Origin: Entomobacter blattae
GTDB lineage: Bacteria; Pseudomonadota; Alphaproteobacteria; Acetobacterales; Acetobacteraceae
Length of the DNA stretch: 64,000 bases
NCBI RefSeq assembly: GCF_014672835.1
Contig: NZ_CP060244.1
Coordinates: 1,281,001 to 1,345,000, forward strand
Reading direction: 5' to 3'
Both the position numbers and the translations under genes were made by a program. A model generated the notes under the pieces. It was not told where the DNA came from and did not search any database. It saw only the letters and a program-made list of their open reading frames with translations. Positions 240 through 11,384 of the stretch are shown piece after piece (position 1 is the stretch's first letter; each line of letters opens with the position of its first letter).

Positions 240-2642
240 GTGGCAAGTGAAGAGCTGGTTGACCCCACAGGGGAGGAGTCTCATCCATTTCGTCGTTTTA
301 TGATTCAGATTGCGATTCCGATTATTGGGGTTATTTTGGTTGTTTTGGTGATTGTTGGTGTAAGCCTTCATTCCTATAACTCCACACGGGAAGGGGTGCT
401 GAGGCTTTCGCACACCATTCTTCTCAACCAGCAACAGCGGGTTTCAAAAGAAGTAGCCGACTTTCTAGAGCCCGCCTCAACAGCAGCTTTCATCCTTGAT
501 GATATGATCCACCACAGCCCCATCCGCTATGAAAGGGGCCTGTTCGAGATCTATACCACAAGCCTCTTGCGGAAAATCCCCCAATTTCAGTCCTTCTATC
601 TGGCTGATGAGGATGGCAACTTTGCCATGGTTGAACATATGAGTGAGGGACGCTTGCGTCGCACGCTTCTGCAAAGAGACCCCACCACCCATAAAATGGT
701 CTTCTACCGCCGGATCTATAATCAGGATGGTGTGCTGATCGGCCAAAGCTCCGACCCCAGCAACGGATATGACCCCCGCACACGGCCATGGTATAAAAAT
801 GCCGGCAAGGATGGCATGATCCAATGGTATAAGCCGTATTACCTCAGTTACTTGCACGAGGTGCTGATCGCCTCTGCGGCCTCTTTTCAGGGGGCTGATG
901 GCAAGAAAAAAGTCTTCTCAGTGAACATCACCTTAAGCCAGCTGACCACATTTTTGTCTTCCCTACGTTTTGGTACCCATGGGGATGCCGCCATTATTGA
1001 CAAGGATGGCCACTTTATTGCCGGTAGGCGCCTTTTGGAAGTAGCTCACCAAAAGCAGAAATCCAATGCTGAGTGGGACCCCACCGATACGGTGGTCGAT
1101 AGCCAGCATACCCCGGTGTTAATGCGCGCTTATGATGACTTTCGTGTCAATAGTTATGGGGTCCGTGAGATTCAAAAGGATAATAAGCGTTATATCATGA
1201 TTGCAGCAGCCCTTCCCTCTGATACCCAGGGGTGGATTTTGCTGGTGGTGGTACCTGAAAATGACTTCTCTGACTTTACAGCGTCCGATGGAAAGCAGAA
1301 TTTTCTGTTTTCTCTGGTCATTGTAGGCCTGGCCATTGTCTTGGCAGGCTTGCTTATCCGCCAGGGAAGGCGAACAGAAAAAGCCCGTAAGGATTTTCGC
1401 ACCCAACAATATATCAACCAACAGCAGGGCCAAATTATCGGAGATTTCGCAAGAGACCCAACCTTGCTCAACCCACAAGAAGAAGCTCTTAAACTCACAG
1501 AAGAATTGGCGAGCCTTTCGCATAGCAAGCGCGTGGGTTTATGGCGCTTATTGCGAGATGGCAGCACGTTATTATGCGATGATTTTTACGATGTCCAAGG
1601 CGATACCCACACCGGTGGCTTTGAAATTGCCAATGCGGAAATGTCAGCTTTCTTCAGCCTTATTCAAGAAGGGGGGACAGTGCATATTGAGGATGCGAGC
1701 AGAGATGATCGGGTGCTGCCTTATTACCGGCAATATATGAGCAAGTTCGGCTCTACCTCGCTTGATATTTTTATTGTCCAGGGTGAGGGCTCTGCCTCAG
1801 CTGGGGCGATTGTCCTAGAGGATGCCGAAATTATCCGCAATGTGGCCAATACTGTTGAGCTGGTCGGGGCGATTGTAGCCTTGCGCTTTGCCGTCGCTAA
1901 CCGGGAGATGATAGGCTATACCCGCAAAGTAGCCTCTCAAAGCCAGCCCGTTATACTGGCCCAAAAAGAGCAAAACCTTATTGGCGAGCAGGGGGTTAAT
2001 GGGCAGATGTTTCCTTTGGCCCTGCAGAAGCCTCACCAAGCGGGTTCATCCCAATCTGTGCCTGAGGGGGAGGGTGCTGAACTGGCCAACCAGGGGTTCT
2101 TCCCCTATGTTGCGGTTATGATGCTCAGCTTTTTGGAATTAAACCAAGTTTCTGCCCATAGTGCTGACACTATTGTTGAAACGGTTAAAACCATGAGCCT
2201 GCAGCTTGAAGAGGTGGCTCAGAAATATAACCTTCGGTATATACAGGTGGTTGGCAACCGTATTCTGGCTGCAACGGGGTTTGTCCCTGAAGGGGATTCC
2301 ACAGCCATTATTCGCTTGGCCAATGCAGCTTTGGATATCCGTGATCTTTGTGCAGCCCTGCTGGGCCAGCTCGATATTGACCCTCTCTTTAAAATAGGCA
2401 TGGATATTGGGCCCGCTTATGCAGGCCATTTGGGTCAGGCAGGGCAGGTGTTTAACATATGGGGTGGGGTGGTTAAAGTGGCAGAGCTTATGGCCTTTGA
2501 TGCCCCCGATATTGGCACCATTCAGGTGACGGAAGTGGTTTATGAGAACTTGCGTCATCGGTTCCTGTTCAGGCCTAGAAGCACGTTTTTTGTGCCTGGC
2601 AGTGGCTTGGTGCAAACCTATGTTCTGGCGGGGTTGCGTTAA
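240..2642 (+). CDS. Membrane sensor with dCache, GAF and degenerate nucleotidyl-cyclase domain
   Basis: An 800-residue inner-membrane protein, first gene of the lipid-transport operon. A membrane helix at about 21-44 is followed by a periplasmic region of about 300 residues resembling a double Cache sensor, a second helix at about 355-375, a GAF-like domain at about 400-560, and a C-terminal domain from about 620 with the fold signature of class III cyclases (GPAYAGHLG and IQVTEVVYENL match the usual pattern). The metal-binding aspartates are absent: the usual FADI-type segment reads MLSF, and GDAxxA reads GNRILAA. In the WGDxVNxAxR motif D, N and R are replaced (WGGVVKVAELM). I infer no cyclase activity and a regulatory or binding role. 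The GTG start follows an AAAGAGGAAA ribosome-binding site. Confidence 0.85.
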   Translation: MASEELVDPTGEESHPFRRFMIQIAIPIIGVILVVLVIVGVSLHSYNSTREGVLRLSHTILLNQQQRVSKEVADFLEPASTAAFILDDMIHHSPIRYERGLFEIYTTSLLRKIPQFQSFYLADEDGNFAMVEHMSEGRLRRTLLQRDPTTHKMVFYRRIYNQDGVLIGQSSDPSNGYDPRTRPWYKNAGKDGMIQWYKPYYLSYLHEVLIASAASFQGADGKKKVFSVNITLSQLTTFLSSLRFGTHGDAAIIDKDGHFIAGRRLLEVAHQKQKSNAEWDPTDTVVDSQHTPVLMRAYDDFRVNSYGVREIQKDNKRYIMIAAALPSDTQGWILLVVVPENDFSDFTASDGKQNFLFSLVIVGLAIVLAGLLIRQGRRTEKARKDFRTQQYINQQQGQIIGDFARDPTLLNPQEEALKLTEELASLSHSKRVGLWRLLRDGSTLLCDDFYDVQGDTHTGGFEIANAEMSAFFSLIQEGGTVHIEDASRDDRVLPYYRQYMSKFGSTSLDIFIVQGEGSASAGAIVLEDAEIIRNVANTVELVGAIVALRFAVANREMIGYTRKVASQSQPVILAQKEQNLIGEQGVNGQMFPLALQKPHQAGSSQSVPEGEGAELANQGFFPYVAVMMLSFLELNQVSAHSADTIVETVKTMSLQLEEVAQKYNLRYIQVVGNRILAATGFVPEGDSTAIIRLANAALDIRDLCAALLGQLDIDPLFKIGMDIGPAYAGHLGQAGQVFNIWGGVVKVAELMAFDAPDIGTIQVTEVVYENLRHRFLFRPRSTFFVPGSGLVQTYVLAGLR

Positions 2643-2643
2643 C

Positions 2644-3642
2644 ATGATAGGTTGGGCCCCAAAAAAGATGTGGATTGTGCCAGGTCCTATGCCAAGCCCT
2701 ATGCCAGATCCCTTTATACTGGGCTTCCCAAGGGCTACCTCATGGATTTTAAGCCCTATAGTGGGCGGGTTATGGGGTCGTGAGCAGTGCAACTGTGACC
2801 AGTACAGCAGTGATCAGCGCAGAAGAAGTGACCAGTGGGGCAGCGACCAACACAGTAAGGGGAGTGCTCTTAACCAAGCTCGCTTAGCGAGCAGAGGAGT
2901 TGCGGAAAGCAACCGTGACGAATGTTCTCAATATTCTCGTGGCCATAAAGGGGAGAGAGAAGACTGCCAGCTTCAAGACCCCTCCCAAGACCTCCCTAAA
3001 AAGATAGGCTCCAAAAACACAGGCCCCAAAAAAACACGTCATGAAAAAATGGGCCATGAGAAAACACGCCCTGAGAAAACGGGCCATAAAAAAATGCGCT
3101 ATGAAAAAGAGGCCCATGAAAAAACACGCCAGAATAAGGCCTGGAACAGGGGGCAAAAGTGGGTTTGTTGTTTTCTTGGCAGGATCCTTCTTGTGCGCTG
3201 GGTCCCTCTTGTGGGTATGGTCTCTCTTGTAGGGAATGAAAGTCAAGGAAAGCTTAACCTTTATAAGGGGTTTGAGAACGCAAGGGAAGTTGAAAACGCA
3301 GGAGAAAAGAGAGGCGAGTGTAAAAATAAAAACAAGAATAAGAATAAAAATAAAACCCAGCTTACCCCATGGCCTGTCTTCTTCCCTTCTCTTTTAATTC
3401 AGGGGCGAAAGATTTTGGGGGCACAGGGCAATCCTGCTTTGGTGAGAAGGCATTATTTTACGGTATCTTTTTTATCTTCTTTTTGGTCTTTATCTTTTTC
3501 CTGGGTCTTACCTTCTTTTGGGGGGGGTGCTGTAAGGTCTTTTTATCAAAGGGTTTATTTTAATCAGGGGGTTTATGAGTGGGTTTATGAGTCTGGCCTT
3601 TCAGCTCTTAAAGCGGGTAAAGGAGTTTTCTCATGCGCCTAA
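2644..3642 (+). CDS. Candidate translated low-complexity spacer ORF between sensor and permease
   Basis: An open frame of 332 codons fills the whole gap. Its ATG lies one base after the upstream TAA, and its stop overlaps the permease start by 10 bases. The product is low complexity, with a run of 5-residue repeats of the type HEKTx, and matches no family I recognise. The frame stays open for about 1 kb although the DNA is repetitive and looks like other non-coding spacers here. It may be a real fast-evolving protein, or a spacer kept open so ribosomes reach the permease. I favour the second reading; annotators may call nothing here. Confidence 0.3.
   Translation: MIGWAPKKMWIVPGPMPSPMPDPFILGFPRATSWILSPIVGGLWGREQCNCDQYSSDQRRRSDQWGSDQHSKGSALNQARLASRGVAESNRDECSQYSRGHKGEREDCQLQDPSQDLPKKIGSKNTGPKKTRHEKMGHEKTRPEKTGHKKMRYEKEAHEKTRQNKAWNRGQKWVCCFLGRILLVRWVPLVGMVSLVGNESQGKLNLYKGFENAREVENAGEKRGECKNKNKNKNKNKTQLTPWPVFFPSLLIQGRKILGAQGNPALVRRHYFTVSFLSSFWSLSFSWVLPSFGGGAVRSFYQRVYFNQGVYEWVYESGLSALKAGKGVFSCA
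3010..3129. repeat. 15-bp tandem repeat, about 8 diverged units
   Basis: Units of the form catgaaaaaatgggc recur every 15 bp. Because 15 is a multiple of 3 the array keeps the overlapping 332-codon frame open and reads as 5-residue repeats. Confidence 0.8.
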
Positions 3643-4469
3643 GCTGGGCAGGGTTGTGGTCTTCACGCTGGTTTATTACGTTTTTTCGCTGGTTGGGCTT
3701 TATTGGCCGGGTAACGCGTACGCATGTTCGTTTTTTTCTGGTGCTGGTGGGAACCGCTTGGGGTGTGCTACGCGAAAGTGTGAACCCTTTATCGTGGCGG
3801 CGTACGGTGGTTTATGAGTTTCGGCGCACTTTATCGCAGGCGGTTGGTGGGGGGGTCATGAGCACCCTCTTTACGGCCACCCTGACCGGAATAGCCATTA
3901 TCTCCCAAACCATTTATTGGCTTGGGGTGGCTGGCATGGACCAGATGACAGGCTCGATCCTGGCTACGATCCTTCTGCGTGAGGTTGCCCCCATTTTGGT
4001 GGGAATCATCATGCTGGGCCGAAGCGGCATGCTGGCCGTAGCAGAATGTGGACAGCTAACGCGCACAGGCACAATCCGGCTTTTGGAATCCCAAGGGGTA
4101 GACCCCTTTACGTTTTTTGTTATGTCGCGGGCATTTTCCTTTACCATCAGTAGCTTTACCTTAGGGATTTTGTTTAGTTTTACAGCACTTTTTGTGGGTT
4201 ATATCATTAGCTATTCGGTAGGGACAACATCCAGCTCGGTGTGGTTTTTCTTCAATACTGTCCTTTTATCCATGACAGCGTGGGACTACATTCTTGTGCC
4301 GTTAAAATTTGTGACCATTGGTTTTTTCATTGGCCTTGGCTCCACATTAACCGGGCTGCTCATTCAAAGTAACGAGAGCGTTTCTTCCCTTTTGCCAAGA
4401 GCCTTTGCCAGGGGTATTCTCATGGTTATGTTTATAACGGTGCTGTTTAGCATCAATATTAATTTTTAG
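3633..4469 (+). CDS. MlaE-family lipid ABC transporter permease
   Basis: A 278-residue integral membrane protein of the MlaE/YrbE permease family, the membrane subunit of MCE-type systems that move phospholipid or other hydrophobic molecules between the membranes. The family core is visible: the segment with LREVAPILVGIIMLGRSG at about residues 125-145 is the characteristic coupling region, followed by several hydrophobic helices to the C-terminus. AAAGGAG lies 8 bases upstream of the ATG. It is followed after 21 bases by the ATPase-like gene and then the MCE gene, so permease, ATPase and substrate-binding subunits are adjacent. The substrate cannot be read from sequence. Confidence 0.9.
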   Translation: MRLSWAGLWSSRWFITFFRWLGFIGRVTRTHVRFFLVLVGTAWGVLRESVNPLSWRRTVVYEFRRTLSQAVGGGVMSTLFTATLTGIAIISQTIYWLGVAGMDQMTGSILATILLREVAPILVGIIMLGRSGMLAVAECGQLTRTGTIRLLESQGVDPFTFFVMSRAFSFTISSFTLGILFSFTALFVGYIISYSVGTTSSSVWFFFNTVLLSMTAWDYILVPLKFVTIGFFIGLGSTLTGLLIQSNESVSSLLPRAFARGILMVMFITVLFSININF

Positions 4470-4490: not shown

Positions 4491-5195
4491 ATGAGCGGTA
4501 TTGAACCCCTACTGGAAATGCAAGATGTTCTGCCCTATTTTGAGCAGACCGTCTTACCCCCCGCAATTTATAATTTTAGGGTTTTTGCTGGCCAGTTTAT
4601 TCTTATAGAATGCCGCAATGCTTTTAGAGGGAATGCTTTTGCGGATATGTGCCTGGGTATGGTGGGTTTAAAGACGGGGAGCATTCGGTTTATGGGGTTG
4701 GATTGGGCCAAGCTCCAGCTCCAGCAAAAAAATGCCTTGCGTGGCCGTGTTGGCCGCTATCCCCATATTCAAGGGAACTGGATGAACCTTCTGGGCACCC
4801 ATTTTAACATTATGTTTCAGCAGCTTCATCACACCAAGCGTGAGACAGAAGAAATTGTTCATGAGGCCACAGCCCTCTCACGGCGCTTTGGCTTGCCGGG
4901 CCTTCCCGTTGAAGCCCCAGAAATGTTAAGCGACGTTGATAGGGCTCGTGCAGCCTGTGTCAGGGCGTTTATGGGAAGCCCCTCTCTTGTTCTGTTGGAA
5001 TATTGCCTAGAAGATTATTTGCCGGAATTAAAAGACCCCTTGTTTCGTACCATTAACAATATGCAAAGCACAGGGACGGCGGTGATCAGCTTTACCAGGG
5101 ATCGGTTTTTATGGAAGGATTATAACCGCGAGATATCGGGCTTCTACCGCTTACGGACGGAAGGGCTGGTCGTGTCGAGAGGAGGGATACAGTAA
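4491..5195 (+). CDS. Degenerate ABC ATPase-like subunit of the MCE system
   Basis: A 234-residue protein in the place of MlaF. The layout is that of an ABC nucleotide-binding domain, but each catalytic motif is broken. The P-loop position reads IECRNAFRGNAF, with no GxxGxGKS/T and no lysine. The signature reads LSDVDRARAACVRAF instead of LSGGQ. The Walker B equivalent is LVLLEYCLED, lacking the consecutive Asp-Glu. The H-loop region reads ISFTRDRF with no histidine. The stop TAA shares its last base with the ATG of the MCE gene, indicating translational coupling. I infer a non-hydrolysing scaffold or a partner for an ATPase encoded elsewhere. Confidence 0.75.
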   Translation: MSGIEPLLEMQDVLPYFEQTVLPPAIYNFRVFAGQFILIECRNAFRGNAFADMCLGMVGLKTGSIRFMGLDWAKLQLQQKNALRGRVGRYPHIQGNWMNLLGTHFNIMFQQLHHTKRETEEIVHEATALSRRFGLPGLPVEAPEMLSDVDRARAACVRAFMGSPSLVLLEYCLEDYLPELKDPLFRTINNMQSTGTAVISFTRDRFLWKDYNREISGFYRLRTEGLVVSRGGIQ

Positions 5196-6196
5196 TGTTT
5201 TTATTTAGGCGAACCGATAATGCCCGCCAGCTTGTCCATATTCGCTATACGGATGAATGGGTCGGCGTGCTGGTTTTGATCTGTTTAATTGCCTGTGGGG
5301 CGGCCGTGGTGGAAGCGGGTTTTTTAAGGGATTGGTTAACCCCTTCTGCCAGCTTGCGCATCTTGCTGCCAGAAACAGGGGTGGCTAACCTCAGTGTGGG
5401 CGATGATGTGGAGGTGTTTGGTATTCATGCCGGTACCATCCGCAAGGTTTCGGTTAACCCTTCTGGTGGGCTCTATGCTGTCGCCGAAATAGACCCCCAG
5501 GTGACGATTTATATTCGCCAAGATAGTCAGGCTGTTATTCGCCGGCGTTTTGCCGTGGCAGGGGCCACTTATATTGCCATTAGCCGTGGCTTTGGCCAGG
5601 AGTTTGACTGGCACTACGCCGTTATTAAAGCCAACACCGAGCCCAACCCGATGGATACCATAACCCAGATGTTGCTTCAGGTTCACCAAAAGATCCTGCC
5701 TATTCTCGATAGTGCCCAGCAGCTGGTAGATAACCTTGATAACGTAACCGGCAATCTGCGGACGGGTAAGGGCACTATTGGCCGCCTGCTCAGCAATGAT
5801 GACCTAGCGCGCAAGACAGAAAAAATGGTCACCGCGCTGAATGCTGTGGTCAACAACCTTCAACCACTGGAAGGCAAAGCCGGTGCCGTGTTGGGCAGTG
5901 CACACCAGGTGATGGGCAATACCAACAAAATCCTTACCCATACCGATGTGATCTTGGCGAATTTGCGCCGTATCTCGCATGATTTGGAGCAGGCTTCTCC
6001 GCGGCTGCCTCGATTGGTGAAAAACCTTGATGAAAGCACCAGCAACCTGCCTGCCTTGCTGACCCAAACTCAGTTGATGGTTGACCAGCTTGAAAAGCTC
6101 ACCCGCCAGCTTCGAGGATTGTGGTATTTGGGGGGAGCGAATACCAAGCCGCGCTCTCAAACAGACCGCCTGCCTGCCCATGAGGTTAACCCATGA
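5195..6196 (+). CDS. MCE (MlaD-like) substrate-binding protein
   Basis: A 333-residue protein with one N-terminal membrane helix at about 22-42, an MCE domain at about 50-130 (GxxVxxxGxxxGxV-like stretch DDVEVFGIHAGTIRKV), and a long helical C-terminal region rich in heptad-like Leu/Val and Asn residues. That arrangement matches periplasmic MCE proteins that bind or channel lipids between inner-membrane permease and outer-membrane partners. It starts inside the stop codon of the ATPase-like gene and overlaps the next gene by an ATGA, so the four genes are probably co-translated. Confidence 0.88.
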   Translation: MFLFRRTDNARQLVHIRYTDEWVGVLVLICLIACGAAVVEAGFLRDWLTPSASLRILLPETGVANLSVGDDVEVFGIHAGTIRKVSVNPSGGLYAVAEIDPQVTIYIRQDSQAVIRRRFAVAGATYIAISRGFGQEFDWHYAVIKANTEPNPMDTITQMLLQVHQKILPILDSAQQLVDNLDNVTGNLRTGKGTIGRLLSNDDLARKTEKMVTALNAVVNNLQPLEGKAGAVLGSAHQVMGNTNKILTHTDVILANLRRISHDLEQASPRLPRLVKNLDESTSNLPALLTQTQLMVDQLEKLTRQLRGLWYLGGANTKPRSQTDRLPAHEVNP

Positions 6197-8043
6197 GAGA
6201 GATGTTTAAAATTCTGTTTCCTCTCAAGGCCCTCCGTATAGTGTGGCCCGGCATTGTTCCCACTTGGCTCTTACCCCACAGCAAACCAGAAGGACACTTT
6301 TGGGGTCTTGGCCCAAAAATGGGGCCAGGGCCAGGTTTACGGTCTATCCCTGATCCAAGCTTGCAGCTTAACTCCAGCGCAAGTTTGATAGGAAGGCCAA
6401 GGGTTGGCAGAGATTTTGCTGTAGATTATGGCTTAAACCCACAGCCAGGGTGGGAGGGGAATGATCAGGAGAGGTTGAAAGAAAAGGCTGGGACGCAAAA
6501 ATCTACTCTACAACCCAACAAGAGAACAGACCCAAGGGGAAGGCTAAGCTCAAAAACAAGACTAAGCTTAAGAATGCCACCAAGAATACCCCCGAGAATA
6601 TCTCTGAAAATATCCTCAAGACTAACTCCAGAGGGAAGAGCGGACATATTAGAGAGAGGAACAGAAATAAAAAAAACACTTCTCGGCGCCTTTTCAGGCC
6701 GAGGAGCGATTCTTGTCTCCTTGCAGGAAAGGACACAAGGGCTCCATCAGGGCGTATCCTCTCCAACACCCCTAATGACACACCCAATCACAGTGCCAAT
6801 CTTATCGAGGAGCGATTCTTGTCTCCTTGCAGGAAAGAAAACAAGGGCCCCATCAGAGCGTATTCCCTCTAACACCTCCCATGACATCCTCAATTACAGC
6901 GCTCCAATCACAGCCCCAATGACATATGCTGTAACACAGGCAGTAACACATGCCGTAACATACTTAGGAGCACACCCAGTACCACCTCCTGGAGGAGAGC
7001 CCAGAGAACGAGAGCCTAGAGCACGAGAGCGAGAGGTCAGAGCACAGCAGGCAACCTTGGGAAGGCAAGCAGGTTGGAGGTGGTCAGCATCTTTGGTGGG
7101 TCTTCTATTCTTGGGGTTGGCCGGGGGTGTGGCAGGCTGTGGGAGCGTTGAAGAGGAAGATCCCTACGATCAAAATCTTTATCTTACCATGCGCGCGGGG
7201 GATCAGTCAGCCAGCTTGCAGCGTTATAGCCAGGCAGAACAGCAATATCAGAAAGCCTATTTTGCGGCTGTGGCCAGAAATGATCATGAAGCCATAGAGA
7301 ATGCCGCCTATAATCTGGCATTAACCCAGTTGGCCCAAAGCCAGGCGCAAGCAGCCCTCAAACAGGTTACCCTAGCCCGGCAGGCTTTGTTGGTGCGGGG
7401 GGTTAAAACGGCTTCTGCTCTTGATCTGGTGGCCGCTGCTGCCCAGTTTAGGCTAGACCATTATAGCCAGGCTGCCCTTTTGGCCGAGAGGGCCATGCAG
7501 TCTTCTCAGAGTGATATTGCCGAGCGGGCCGCCTTTATCAGAGGGTTAATTGCTGATGAGCAGGGGGACAACCCAACCTTACGGGCCATGCTTGGGCGTG
7601 TGGCGCCGCAAGATAAGGATGAAAGTGAGCTCAGCTTACCCCAAAGGGCTGATAAGGCCGAATTGCAAGCCCGCTTTTTTCGTAGATCTGGCCAGTTGAA
7701 CGAGGCCCAACAACAGATTACGCTGGCCAGTGGGTTTTATCGCCGTGCGGTGGATTACCGCAGTATGGCCCGTAGCTTGGCTTTTGAAGGAGATTTAACT
7801 CTTCAGCAAGGTCATACCCAACGCGCCGGAGATTTTTACCTTCAGGCGGCCCAGTCACTTCTTTTGTTGAGGGACGATCACGGGGCAGAAAAACTATGGC
7901 GTAAAATTCAGGTTCTGCCGCTTTCGGGTGCATGGAAAAGGCAGGCAGAGAAAAGTATGTCTCGTATTCGTATGGAGTTAATGGATGTTCCGGTCGATAT
8001 TATTAAAAAACGTGCAGCCCGCCAACAGGAGAACCGCTGGTAG
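6193..8043 (+). CDS. TPR-type lipoprotein with long low-complexity N-terminal extension
   Basis: The 616-codon frame starts in the ATGA overlap with the MCE gene. Residues 1 to about 290 are Pro/Arg/Thr-rich, contain repeats and match no domain. Then comes a classic lipoprotein signal (hydrophobic LVGLLFLGLAGGVAGC, cysteine near residue 316), followed by about 300 residues of TPR-like helical pairs. A lipobox so far from the start cannot act as a normal signal peptide, so the functional start may be internal; an in-frame TTG at 7057 would give a normal signal. The extension looks like a repeat expansion inserted between the original start and the signal. Its role in the operon is probably an envelope partner of the MCE system. 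Confidence 0.6.
   Translation: MREMFKILFPLKALRIVWPGIVPTWLLPHSKPEGHFWGLGPKMGPGPGLRSIPDPSLQLNSSASLIGRPRVGRDFAVDYGLNPQPGWEGNDQERLKEKAGTQKSTLQPNKRTDPRGRLSSKTRLSLRMPPRIPPRISLKISSRLTPEGRADILERGTEIKKTLLGAFSGRGAILVSLQERTQGLHQGVSSPTPLMTHPITVPILSRSDSCLLAGKKTRAPSERIPSNTSHDILNYSAPITAPMTYAVTQAVTHAVTYLGAHPVPPPGGEPREREPRAREREVRAQQATLGRQAGWRWSASLVGLLFLGLAGGVAGCGSVEEEDPYDQNLYLTMRAGDQSASLQRYSQAEQQYQKAYFAAVARNDHEAIENAAYNLALTQLAQSQAQAALKQVTLARQALLVRGVKTASALDLVAAAAQFRLDHYSQAALLAERAMQSSQSDIAERAAFIRGLIADEQGDNPTLRAMLGRVAPQDKDESELSLPQRADKAELQARFFRRSGQLNEAQQQITLASGFYRRAVDYRSMARSLAFEGDLTLQQGHTQRAGDFYLQAAQSLLLLRDDHGAEKLWRKIQVLPLSGAWKRQAEKSMSRIRMELMDVPVDIIKKRAARQQENRW
6701..6872. repeat. Direct repeat of about 65 bp, offset 106 bp
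   Basis: Copies at about 6701-6765 and 6807-6872 share gaggagcgattcttgtctcc and continue with high similarity. They lie in the stop-free extension upstream of the lipoprotein signal, showing that the extension grew at least partly by duplication. Confidence 0.8.
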
Positions 8044-8149: not shown

Positions 8150-8265
8150 GCTGACGTATTTGGTAGATTCTCTAGCAGTTTCTCTGACAGATTCTTTGGC
8201 CGCTTTTCTGGCCGCTTTTCTGGCCGCTTTTCTGGCTGGTTATCTGGTCGCTTCTCTGGTCAGTT
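8150..8265. repeat. 12-bp-unit tandem repeat (ttctggccgctt)
   Basis: Three near-perfect units followed by diverged ones. The unit is a multiple of 3, and the frame from 7985 into the small lipoprotein stays open across it, giving RFSGRFSGRFSG-type repeats. Confidence 0.75.
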
Positions 8266-8377
8266 ATTTGGCGGAAGCGCTGCCATTGCACCAGGTGATC
8301 CGAAAAAAGCCCTGGTTATCCGCAACCCAACCGCTTTCATAGGGGCTATCCTGTGCGGGGCAAAACAGACCAGGCGG

Positions 8378-9401: not shown

Positions 9402-10856
9402 TTAAAGCTCCTTAAGGGTGGATTGCTTGCTCACAAAGGCTGCATTGTCTTTCTTTAAGCCCGTAATGGTGACAGCCAGATGGTTGTTTTTCATTTTGGT
9501 GACAATGGTATCCAAGGCGCCGGTGGCAGTAACATCCCAGAAATGGGCATCACTGAGGTCTATCTTCACGTTTTTAACGTTATCGCGAATTTTAAAGGAA
9601 TTTTCGAATAAGGTGGAAGAGGCAAAAAAGATTTGCCCCTTTACCGTGTAAATCCTGGTGGTAGCATCTTCTGACAGGGTACTGCTGACTTCGAGTAAGC
9701 GGCTGAGCTGCCAGGCAAAGAAAATACCGTTGAGCATGACCCCCACAATCACTCCAATGGCCAGGTCTTTGGTGGCGACCACCACGATGACTGTTGCCAG
9801 CATGCACAGGGTAGAGGTTTTAGGATGGAAGGTTATTTCCCTTAAGGAAGACCATGAAAATGTGCTGATAGAGACCATGATCATAATTGCCACCAGCACC
9901 GCTACTGGAACCTGGGCCACAAAGGGGCGTAAAACATCCATCAGCAATAATAAAAAAGCCCCGGCCATAAAGGTCGAAAGCCGCCCCACACCCCCATAGC
10001 GTAAATTGCCCACGGTTTGGCCAATCATGCCGCAACCGGCAATACCACCAAAAAAGCCCACGGCCATGTTGGCAATCCCCAGGCCCGTACATTCCCTACG
10101 CTTGTTACTATGGGTTTCTGTCAGGTCATCAACGACAGTAGCCGTCATTAAGGATTCCAAAGCCCCCACTAAAGCCATCGCAGCGGCATAGGGCACAATA
10201 ATCTCCAGGCTTTCGAATGTTAAAGGAATATGAGGCCAAACCAGCCCGGGAAACCCAGTGGGTAACGCCCCCAGATCGGCTACTGTGTGGAGGGGCATGG
10301 GATAAACCCAGTAGAGAGCCGTCAGCGCTATAATGGCAATCAATGGTGAAGGGATAAGAGTTGTCATAAAGGGAGCCAGATAAATAATGGCCAGGCCCAA
10401 GGCGGTTATCAGATAGGTTTGCCAGTTTGCCCCCAGAAGATGGGGAAGCTGGGCTGAAAAAATAAGAATGGCCAAAGCATTGACAAAGCCCGTACGAACA
10501 GGGCGTGAGACATACTGCATCAGCACATGTAGGCGCAACAGCCCTATCAGCACTTGAAAGAGGCCAGCAAGGATGGTTGCAGCAAACAGATAGTCAATTC
10601 CATGGCCCCGCACCAAGGCGGCAGCCACCAATGCAACAGAACCCGCAGCCCCTGAAACCATGCCCGCTCGCCCACCGGTAAAGGCAATAACAATGCTGAT
10701 GATAAAGGTGGCGTAGAGCCCTACTTCCGGGGCTACACCGGCCACAAAGGAAAAGGCGATGACCTCGGGGATGAGGGCAAAGGTGCTGACCATTCCGGCT
10801 AGAATATCTTGTCGGATATTGCCAAGCCATTCCTGGCGATAATGCGTAGGGGTCAT
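9402..10856 (-). CDS. SulP-family anion transporter with STAS domain
   Basis: A 484-residue transporter from the internal ATG, which has GGAG five bases upstream; the frame is open further to 10937, but that N-terminus is a low-complexity His/Thr/Phe repeat. The SulP transporter domain occupies about 1-385 (QDILAGMVSTFALIPEVIAF start, internal GGIAGCGMIGQT region), followed by a C-terminal STAS domain at about 400-484 (VKIDLSDAHFWDVTATGALD). Family members move sulfate, bicarbonate or dicarboxylates with proton or sodium; the substrate is not readable here. A 23S rRNA relic lies just downstream, and a 10-copy octamer repeat lies 125 bp upstream of the start. Confidence 0.9.
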   Translation of the reverse strand: MTPTHYRQEWLGNIRQDILAGMVSTFALIPEVIAFSFVAGVAPEVGLYATFIISIVIAFTGGRAGMVSGAAGSVALVAAALVRGHGIDYLFAATILAGLFQVLIGLLRLHVLMQYVSRPVRTGFVNALAILIFSAQLPHLLGANWQTYLITALGLAIIYLAPFMTTLIPSPLIAIIALTALYWVYPMPLHTVADLGALPTGFPGLVWPHIPLTFESLEIIVPYAAAMALVGALESLMTATVVDDLTETHSNKRRECTGLGIANMAVGFFGGIAGCGMIGQTVGNLRYGGVGRLSTFMAGAFLLLLMDVLRPFVAQVPVAVLVAIMIMVSISTFSWSSLREITFHPKTSTLCMLATVIVVVATKDLAIGVIVGVMLNGIFFAWQLSRLLEVSSTLSEDATTRIYTVKGQIFFASSTLFENSFKIRDNVKNVKIDLSDAHFWDVTATGALDTIVTKMKNNHLAVTITGLKKDNAAFVSKQSTLKEL

Positions 10857-11384
10857 TATAGCTCCTGTGATAAAGGGGGTGGTGATGAAGGGGTAATGAA
10901 GGGTGAGTGTGGTAAAAAAGGGGTTGTGGGTCGTCATTTGGTCTAAAGGGGGTGTTTCAGCTGTGATACTGCAATATTCTTTCTATTGTTCTATTGTTCT
11001 ATTGTTCTATTGTTCTATTGTTCTATTGTTCTATTGTTCTATTGTTCTATTGTTCTATTGTTCAACCTATCGTTCAGCGCAAGGGGCCCCTTTTGAATGG
11101 GCTCGTTGGGTTAACCTGTTTTGGGTTGGTCTGTCTTAGGTTAGTCTGTCTTGGGGGATCAGTCTGTCTTGGATTAATCTGTCAAAGATAGCTTGTTGTT
11201 TGTACCCGCTATTTGTGAGAATCATCCTAAACGGGTAAGAGAGATCGGGGTAAGGAGATATCCCTGAACGTTCAAGGAACGTTTAAGAAAGGGGCTTAGT
11301 CTTAGGGAACGAGACAAAAAAGATCGCTGAAAACCTCAGATATCAGACCCCAGATATCAGACATCAAACCTCAAAATTCAGGCG
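10857..11384. other. Spacer upstream of sulP: repeats, promoter region presumed
   Basis: No gene supported. It holds the octamer array at 10981-11060, a diverged 15-bp repeat (tctgtcttaggttag type) at about 11128-11183, and a repeat of cagatatcagac near 11336-11365. The sulP promoter must lie here, but no convincing -35/-10 pair stands out. Confidence 0.5.
10981..11060. repeat. Perfect octamer microsatellite (ttctattg) x10
   Basis: Ten uninterrupted copies of an 8-bp unit. Eight is not a multiple of 3, and the array sits in the presumed promoter/leader of sulP, the classic context for slipped-strand length variation. Confidence 0.95.

Follow-up and report, generated by a model that had tools for sequence, protein, structure and literature searches.

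A conserved operon of Mla-type parts encoding an ABC ATPase-like subunit that lacks the ATP-site motifs

Gene organization of the operon

The window analyzed here is a 64,000-nucleotide stretch of the Entomobacter blattae genome (contig NZ_CP060244.1, positions 1,281,001 to 1,345,000), and positions below refer to the window unless stated otherwise. Five genes on the plus strand constitute an operon, in the order of a cyclase-like sensor, an MlaE-family permease, an ABC ATPase-like subunit, an MCE protein, and a TPR-type lipoprotein. The same order is found wherever the contig reaches, from Acetobacteraceae to Desulfobacterales, in 80 loci among the matches listed, and an intact ATPase is encoded in the operon in none of these 80 loci. 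The permease (278 aa, 3633..4469) matches PF02405 with 109 bits (cut-off 22.5) and is followed, after a gap of 21 bp containing a Shine-Dalgarno-like AGGAG, by the 234-aa ATPase-like subunit (4491..5195). The start of the MCE gene overlaps the stop of the latter by one base (TAATG), and the MCE gene and the following ORF likewise overlap, at ATGA. Of the original prediction that the permease, ATPase-like, and MCE genes are adjacent and translationally coupled, the adjacency is borne out; the last two genes overlap, whereas the permease and ATPase-like genes are closely spaced without overlap.

The first gene of the operon (240..2642) encodes an 800-aa membrane sensor of dCache-(GAF)-class III cyclase-like architecture. 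The Pfam Guanylate_cyc family is matched with 59.7 bits and dCache_1 with 44.6 bits, just below its cut-off, and the GAF domain is recognised in homologues. Wherever the contig extends far enough among the 80 loci listed, a homologous sensor is encoded immediately upstream. The active site of its cyclase domain is degenerate: of 76 sensors, 71 lack the second metal Asp and all lack the transition-state Arg, and the first metal Asp, present in 65/76, is Glu in the sensor of the window. By the residue test for this class (two metal Asp together with transition-state Asn/Arg), the sensor is not an active class III nucleotide cyclase, and the operon, as read from its sequences, encodes two enzyme-like proteins without enzyme residues.

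The MCE (MlaD-like) protein (333 aa, 5195..6196, plus strand) comprises an N-terminal membrane helix, an MCE domain matching PF02470 with 36.9 bits (cut-off 25.1), and a helical C-terminal part. In its AlphaFold2 (AF2) model, the strands of residues 52-148 are predicted at approximately 85 pLDDT and the C-terminal helices at low confidence, so that a needle formed by these helices is one that we infer. The lipoprotein ORF (6193..8043, plus strand) measures 616 aa as called, its true start being uncertain, and was assigned from operon homologues; its conserved part and a lipobox-like segment lie in the second half. A homologue is next in the operon in all loci whose contig reaches among the 80 listed, and TPR families were found in the L137 lipoprotein homologue.

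Low-complexity expansion seems common in the genome region around the operon. The gap of approximately 1 kb between the sensor and mlaE (2643-3632) consists of low-complexity, partly tandem-repeat DNA with 15/30-bp repeat units at 2994-3131, and the two genes abut in relatives. Towards the 5′ end of the lipoprotein ORF, approximately 0.8 kb (6250-7060) is of similar low-complexity, partly tandem-repeat DNA that is absent from relatives, and the ORF that follows the lipoprotein contains 12/24-bp repeats (8165-8272) encoding a (GRFS)n-like stretch. Furthermore, a perfect 8-bp array (TTCTATTG, 10.4 copies; 10981-11063), which looks like a phase-variable simple repeat, immediately precedes a SulP-type transporter gene on the minus strand (9402-10937).

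Motifs, fold, and conservation of the ATPase-like subunit

The ORF of the ATPase-like subunit is uninterrupted, and its product matches ABC ATPase profiles weakly (Pfam ABC_tran, 13.1 bits against a cut-off of 25; NCBIfam FtsE, E 4e-8). Alignment with MlaF of E. coli and with the two paralogous MlaF proteins encoded in the same genome, supported by the AF2 model at the Walker A site, located each of the former motifs. The Walker A position (residues 41-49; 4611..4637) reads CRNAFRGNA in place of GPSGIGKTT, with Gly47 replacing the Lys and without a glycine-rich loop; the signature position (residues 146-150; 4926..4940) reads LSDVD in place of LSGGM; the Walker B position (residues 166-172, LVLLEYC; 4986..5006) has LEYC in place of FDEP, so that Asp is replaced by Glu170 and the catalytic Glu by Tyr171; and the H-loop position (5097..5099) has TRD in place of SHD, with Arg203 replacing His. 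The absence of the P-loop Lys, LSGGQ, Walker B Asp-Glu, and H-loop His from a whole, in-frame gene, as originally predicted, is thus borne out, and by these motif tests the protein is non-functional as an ABC ATPase subunit.

The fold, in contrast to the motifs, appears intact. The AF2 model (pLDDT 90.2, pTM 0.89) aligned by VIA-align with a Z of 25.2 to LolD over 222 residues and of 22.7-23.2 to MlaF, the overall range against LolD, FtsE, and MlaF being Z 22-25 over 213-226 residues. The predicted fold is therefore that of an ABC nucleotide-binding domain, with a helix (residues 44-54) modelled at the P-loop site.

Homologues at roughly 32-49% identity occur throughout Acetobacteraceae and, beyond this family, in Skermanella, other Alphaproteobacteria, and Desulfobacterales/Deltaproteobacteria MAGs (at least 80 loci in the scan). 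A set of 89 sequences, comprising 26 groups below 62% identity with a few genomes entered twice, was collected via sequence patterns of the dead family, a bias that is partly offset by the permease-led search described below. The Walker A Lys, signature GG, and H-loop His are each present in 0/89, whereas the catalytic residues are present in 14/14 canonical comparators; the Walker B Asp is replaced by Glu in 88/89, and the catalytic Glu is kept in 8/89. A hidden P-loop elsewhere in the protein, named in the original prediction as a GxxxxGKS loop that would overturn it, was rejected, since neither GK[ST] nor SGG[QMEW] occurs anywhere in the 89 proteins. The alignment of Acetobacteraceae homologues that had been proposed as a check accordingly extends the motif loss to the whole family, including its members in other Alphaproteobacteria and in Desulfobacterales/Deltaproteobacteria MAGs. 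In a tree, the dead sequences form one clade with 100/100 support and a long stem, and the motif loss, judged from these sequences, is ancestral and common to the whole operon family rather than local decay. As for its ancestry, an AU test of MlaF origin versus LolD/FtsE-type origin (p 0.08 and 0.23) rejected neither.

In genome sampling, the scores of true members ranged from 129 to 329 bits, whereas those of ordinary ABC ATPases did not exceed approximately 80. The subunit was found in 90/299 Acetobacteraceae genomes (35/102 genera), 6/385 alphaproteobacterial genomes, and 6/398 Pseudomonadota genomes, and among 395 genomes sampled from the phylum to which one Desulfobacterales MAG belongs, that MAG alone carried it; it is a near-fixture in part of Acetobacteraceae and sporadic outside. 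A search with the permease alignment in the 385 alphaproteobacterial genomes returned exactly the same six genomes as the search with the dead ATPase, and thus no version of the operon with a live ATPase was found in this sample.

Selection on the operon was estimated by the Nei-Gojobori method from same-genus pairs with 0.1 < dS < 0.9, leaving out cross-genus pairs as saturated. The median dN/dS of the dead ATPase was 0.078 over 125 non-independent pairs, and the corresponding values were 0.040 for the permease, 0.039 for the MCE protein, 0.068 for the sensor, and 0.132 for the lipoprotein. Conservation in the dead family compared with active MlaF was low at Walker A (0.41 vs 0.90), the signature (0.57 vs 1.00), and the D-loop (0.35 vs 0.93), whereas it was similar in the post-P-loop helix (0.79 vs 0.77), the strand to the Q-loop (0.74 vs 0.65), and the post-signature helix (0.77 vs 0.82). 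Conservation is thus lost only at the ATP-site motifs, as would be expected if the protein needs its fold and contacts but no ATP. In addition, reduced genomes of 1.9-2.0 Mb have kept the operon, and the family-wide conservation and purifying selection support the earlier suggestion that the gene is being retained.

Elsewhere in the same genome, at approximately 927.7 kb, an intergenic fragment of 185 bp (L068 1454-1637), interrupted by stops, is 80% identical to positions 5056-5239 of the window and corresponds to the end of the dead ATPase gene and the start of the MCE gene. A decayed second full copy at this site was considered and rejected, as the similarity is confined to this fragment.

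Permease coupling helix and possible roles of the subunit

The coupling helix between TM2 and TM3 of MlaE is a documented contact of MlaF (PMC7790496). On the basis of this location, the corresponding region of the operon permease was aligned to positions 4053..4103 (plus strand; QLTRTGTIRLLESQGVDP), in which Gly146 and Arg149 occupy the canonical MlaE positions of Glu/Asp and Asp, respectively. The position of E. coli Glu127 is Gly in 79/79 operon permeases and Glu/Asp in 19/23 canonical ones; the Asp130-equivalent position is Arg/Lys in 77/79 operon permeases and Asp in 20/23 canonical ones, although it is Ser in E. coli itself. The operon permeases hence lack the canonical acidic coupling helix, and they form a divergent MlaE clade with invariant columns of its own. 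Since both partners of this contact, helix and ATPase, have changed, it is less likely that the permease simply employs a canonical MlaF.

The following mechanism is proposed. A single loss of ATP binding and hydrolysis would have occurred in the ancestral form of a distinct operon for MCE lipid transport, and the pseudo-ATPase would have been kept as a non-catalytic subunit with a structural or regulatory role. This subunit most likely still binds its own MlaE-type permease, at the coupling helix on the cytoplasmic side, and may hold or gate it once docked. Lipids, the presumed substrate, would pass from the permease through the MCE ring and its helical extension, presumably towards the outer-membrane lipoprotein, without ATP hydrolysis by the complex, by analogy with Pqi and Let, which lack an ATPase. 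We give roughly even chances to this reading, in which the dead ATPase is a docked, non-catalytic ABC subunit of an MCE lipid-transport system and the complex hydrolyzes no ATP. A point against it is that, to our knowledge, other MlaE-type permeases work with an active ATPase, so that an ATP-independent MlaE would be unprecedented. The dCache-GAF-pseudo-cyclase membrane protein encoded upstream probably provides regulatory input. More tentatively, the pseudo-cyclase might sense the periplasm and signal via the pseudo-ATPase on MlaE, thereby switching a passive MCE lipid bridge between open and closed; if so, an ABC-type transporter would have been turned into a gated, ATP-free channel.

Among the alternatives, the permease might borrow a canonical MlaF from elsewhere, with the dead subunit as an accessory or as the partner in a mixed pair. 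The second MlaF-like gene that the original prediction suggested looking for indeed exists: the genome contains two canonical pairs (MlaE 217667 with MlaF 216871, and MlaE 490241 with MlaF 491008), whose MlaF proteins could act in trans, two or more further MlaE genes are likewise present in 8/8 other operon-bearing genomes tested, and a shared MceG is documented for mycobacterial Mce systems (PMC10517005). However, a mixed pair would have no standard ATP site, as the dead subunit, without Walker A and signature, completes neither composite site; the coupling helix is devoid of the acidic residues conserved in canonical permeases; a redundant subunit is not expected at a dN/dS of approximately 0.08; and the slot in the operon is still filled by the dead subunit itself, whose fold would allow docking on the permease. 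Borrowing is accordingly possible in principle but disfavoured, and we consider it rather doubtful; of the two options originally offered, ATP-independent transfer is the better one, as a proposal. The canonical Mla genes of this genome are scattered, with MlaE/MlaF near 217 kb, MlaC homologues at 661 and 1115 kb, and MlaD homologues at 742 and 1918 kb.

A third option, which the original prediction had left out, is that of a regulatory or blocking subunit. By analogy with Mce1N, which binds the permease competitively and blocks MceG from YrbE1B (PMC10517005), the dead subunit may act as a negative regulator, taking up the site where an ATPase would dock until some signal displaces it. An ABC-like fold could fit the seat of the ATPase, and a sensor protein is always encoded beside the dead ATPase. 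Nevertheless, none of the loci seen encodes a cognate active ATPase in the operon, and the changes in the coupling helix point away from canonical ATPases; such a regulator is therefore unlikely.

Still less probable is a non-canonical site for a nucleotide or another ligand, which would make the dead subunit a ligand-sensing one. Asp150 (89/89) and Glu170 (88/89) are invariant or nearly so in the family, as are Trp72, Arg84, Arg153, and Arg158 in a 17-member alignment, and weak or unusual nucleotide binding at a non-canonical site is possible. The P-loop segment, however, is modelled as a helix, and of the former motifs only the D-loop is less conserved. Finally, a pseudogene heading for loss or a sequencing error can practically be dismissed, since, although the motif loss is complete and a few copies in draft genomes are broken (L145, and a truncated one in G907), the loss is ancestral and family-wide, frames are intact in nearly all genomes, dN/dS is low, the gene is retained in reduced genomes, and its occurrence in so many Acetobacteraceae genomes, at scores far above those of ordinary ABC ATPases, argues against chance or error.

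The role of ATP and the direction of lipid movement are disputed in MCE/Mla lipid transport, and a conserved MlaE-MCE system with a dead subunit in the ATPase slot offers a direct test case. Its retention across the family suggests a transporter that is running or regulated without an ATP motor of its own. If the operon system moves lipids, MlaE and MCE can work without ATP; if a borrowed ATPase is needed or blocking regulates the system, a new layer of control is implicated. Gluconobacter, Acetobacter, and Komagataeibacter, acetic acid bacteria amenable to genetic work, carry the operon, and their envelope lipids matter for acid and ethanol tolerance. No published description of the operon was found in the open literature, subscription papers and preprints being outside the search, and the main text of knockout papers on Gluconobacter oxydans makes no mention of such a gene.

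Comparison with known systems

Degenerate nucleotide-binding domains are kept by selection in half-degenerate ABC transporters such as TAP, CFTR, and PatAB, in which the second site of the pair stays active; by contrast, no active partner is encoded in the present operon. The Mla system (MlaFEDCB) similarly combines an MlaE-family permease, an MCE protein, and a subunit of ABC-ATPase fold in one operon. It differs in that the ATPase-like subunit described here has none of the catalytic motifs, the coupling helix is changed, and the operon lacks MlaB (STAS) and MlaC and has an additional cyclase-like sensor and TPR lipoprotein. Mycobacterial Mce1 resembles the system in drawing its ATPase (MceG) from elsewhere and in having a non-ATPase protein, Mce1N, in the ATPase seat (PMC10517005), although Mce1N is a membrane protein without an ABC fold and MceG is an active ATPase. 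The Brucella Mpc and Veillonella-type single-needle Mla systems likewise have a lipoprotein partner and an MCE protein of approximately 330 aa whose C-terminal extension is helical, features that by analogy suggest an envelope-spanning bridge; however, Mpc retains a conserved ATPase, MpcF (PMC12436622), and the lipoprotein is PqiC-like in those systems and of the TPR type here. Pqi and Let (LetAB) carry out MCE lipid transport without an ATPase domain (PMC12436622), but with PqiA/LetA as the membrane partner and without a pseudo-ATPase, whereas the partner here is MlaE. The operon is plainly made of Mla-type parts but, by composition, is neither Mla, Pqi, nor Let.
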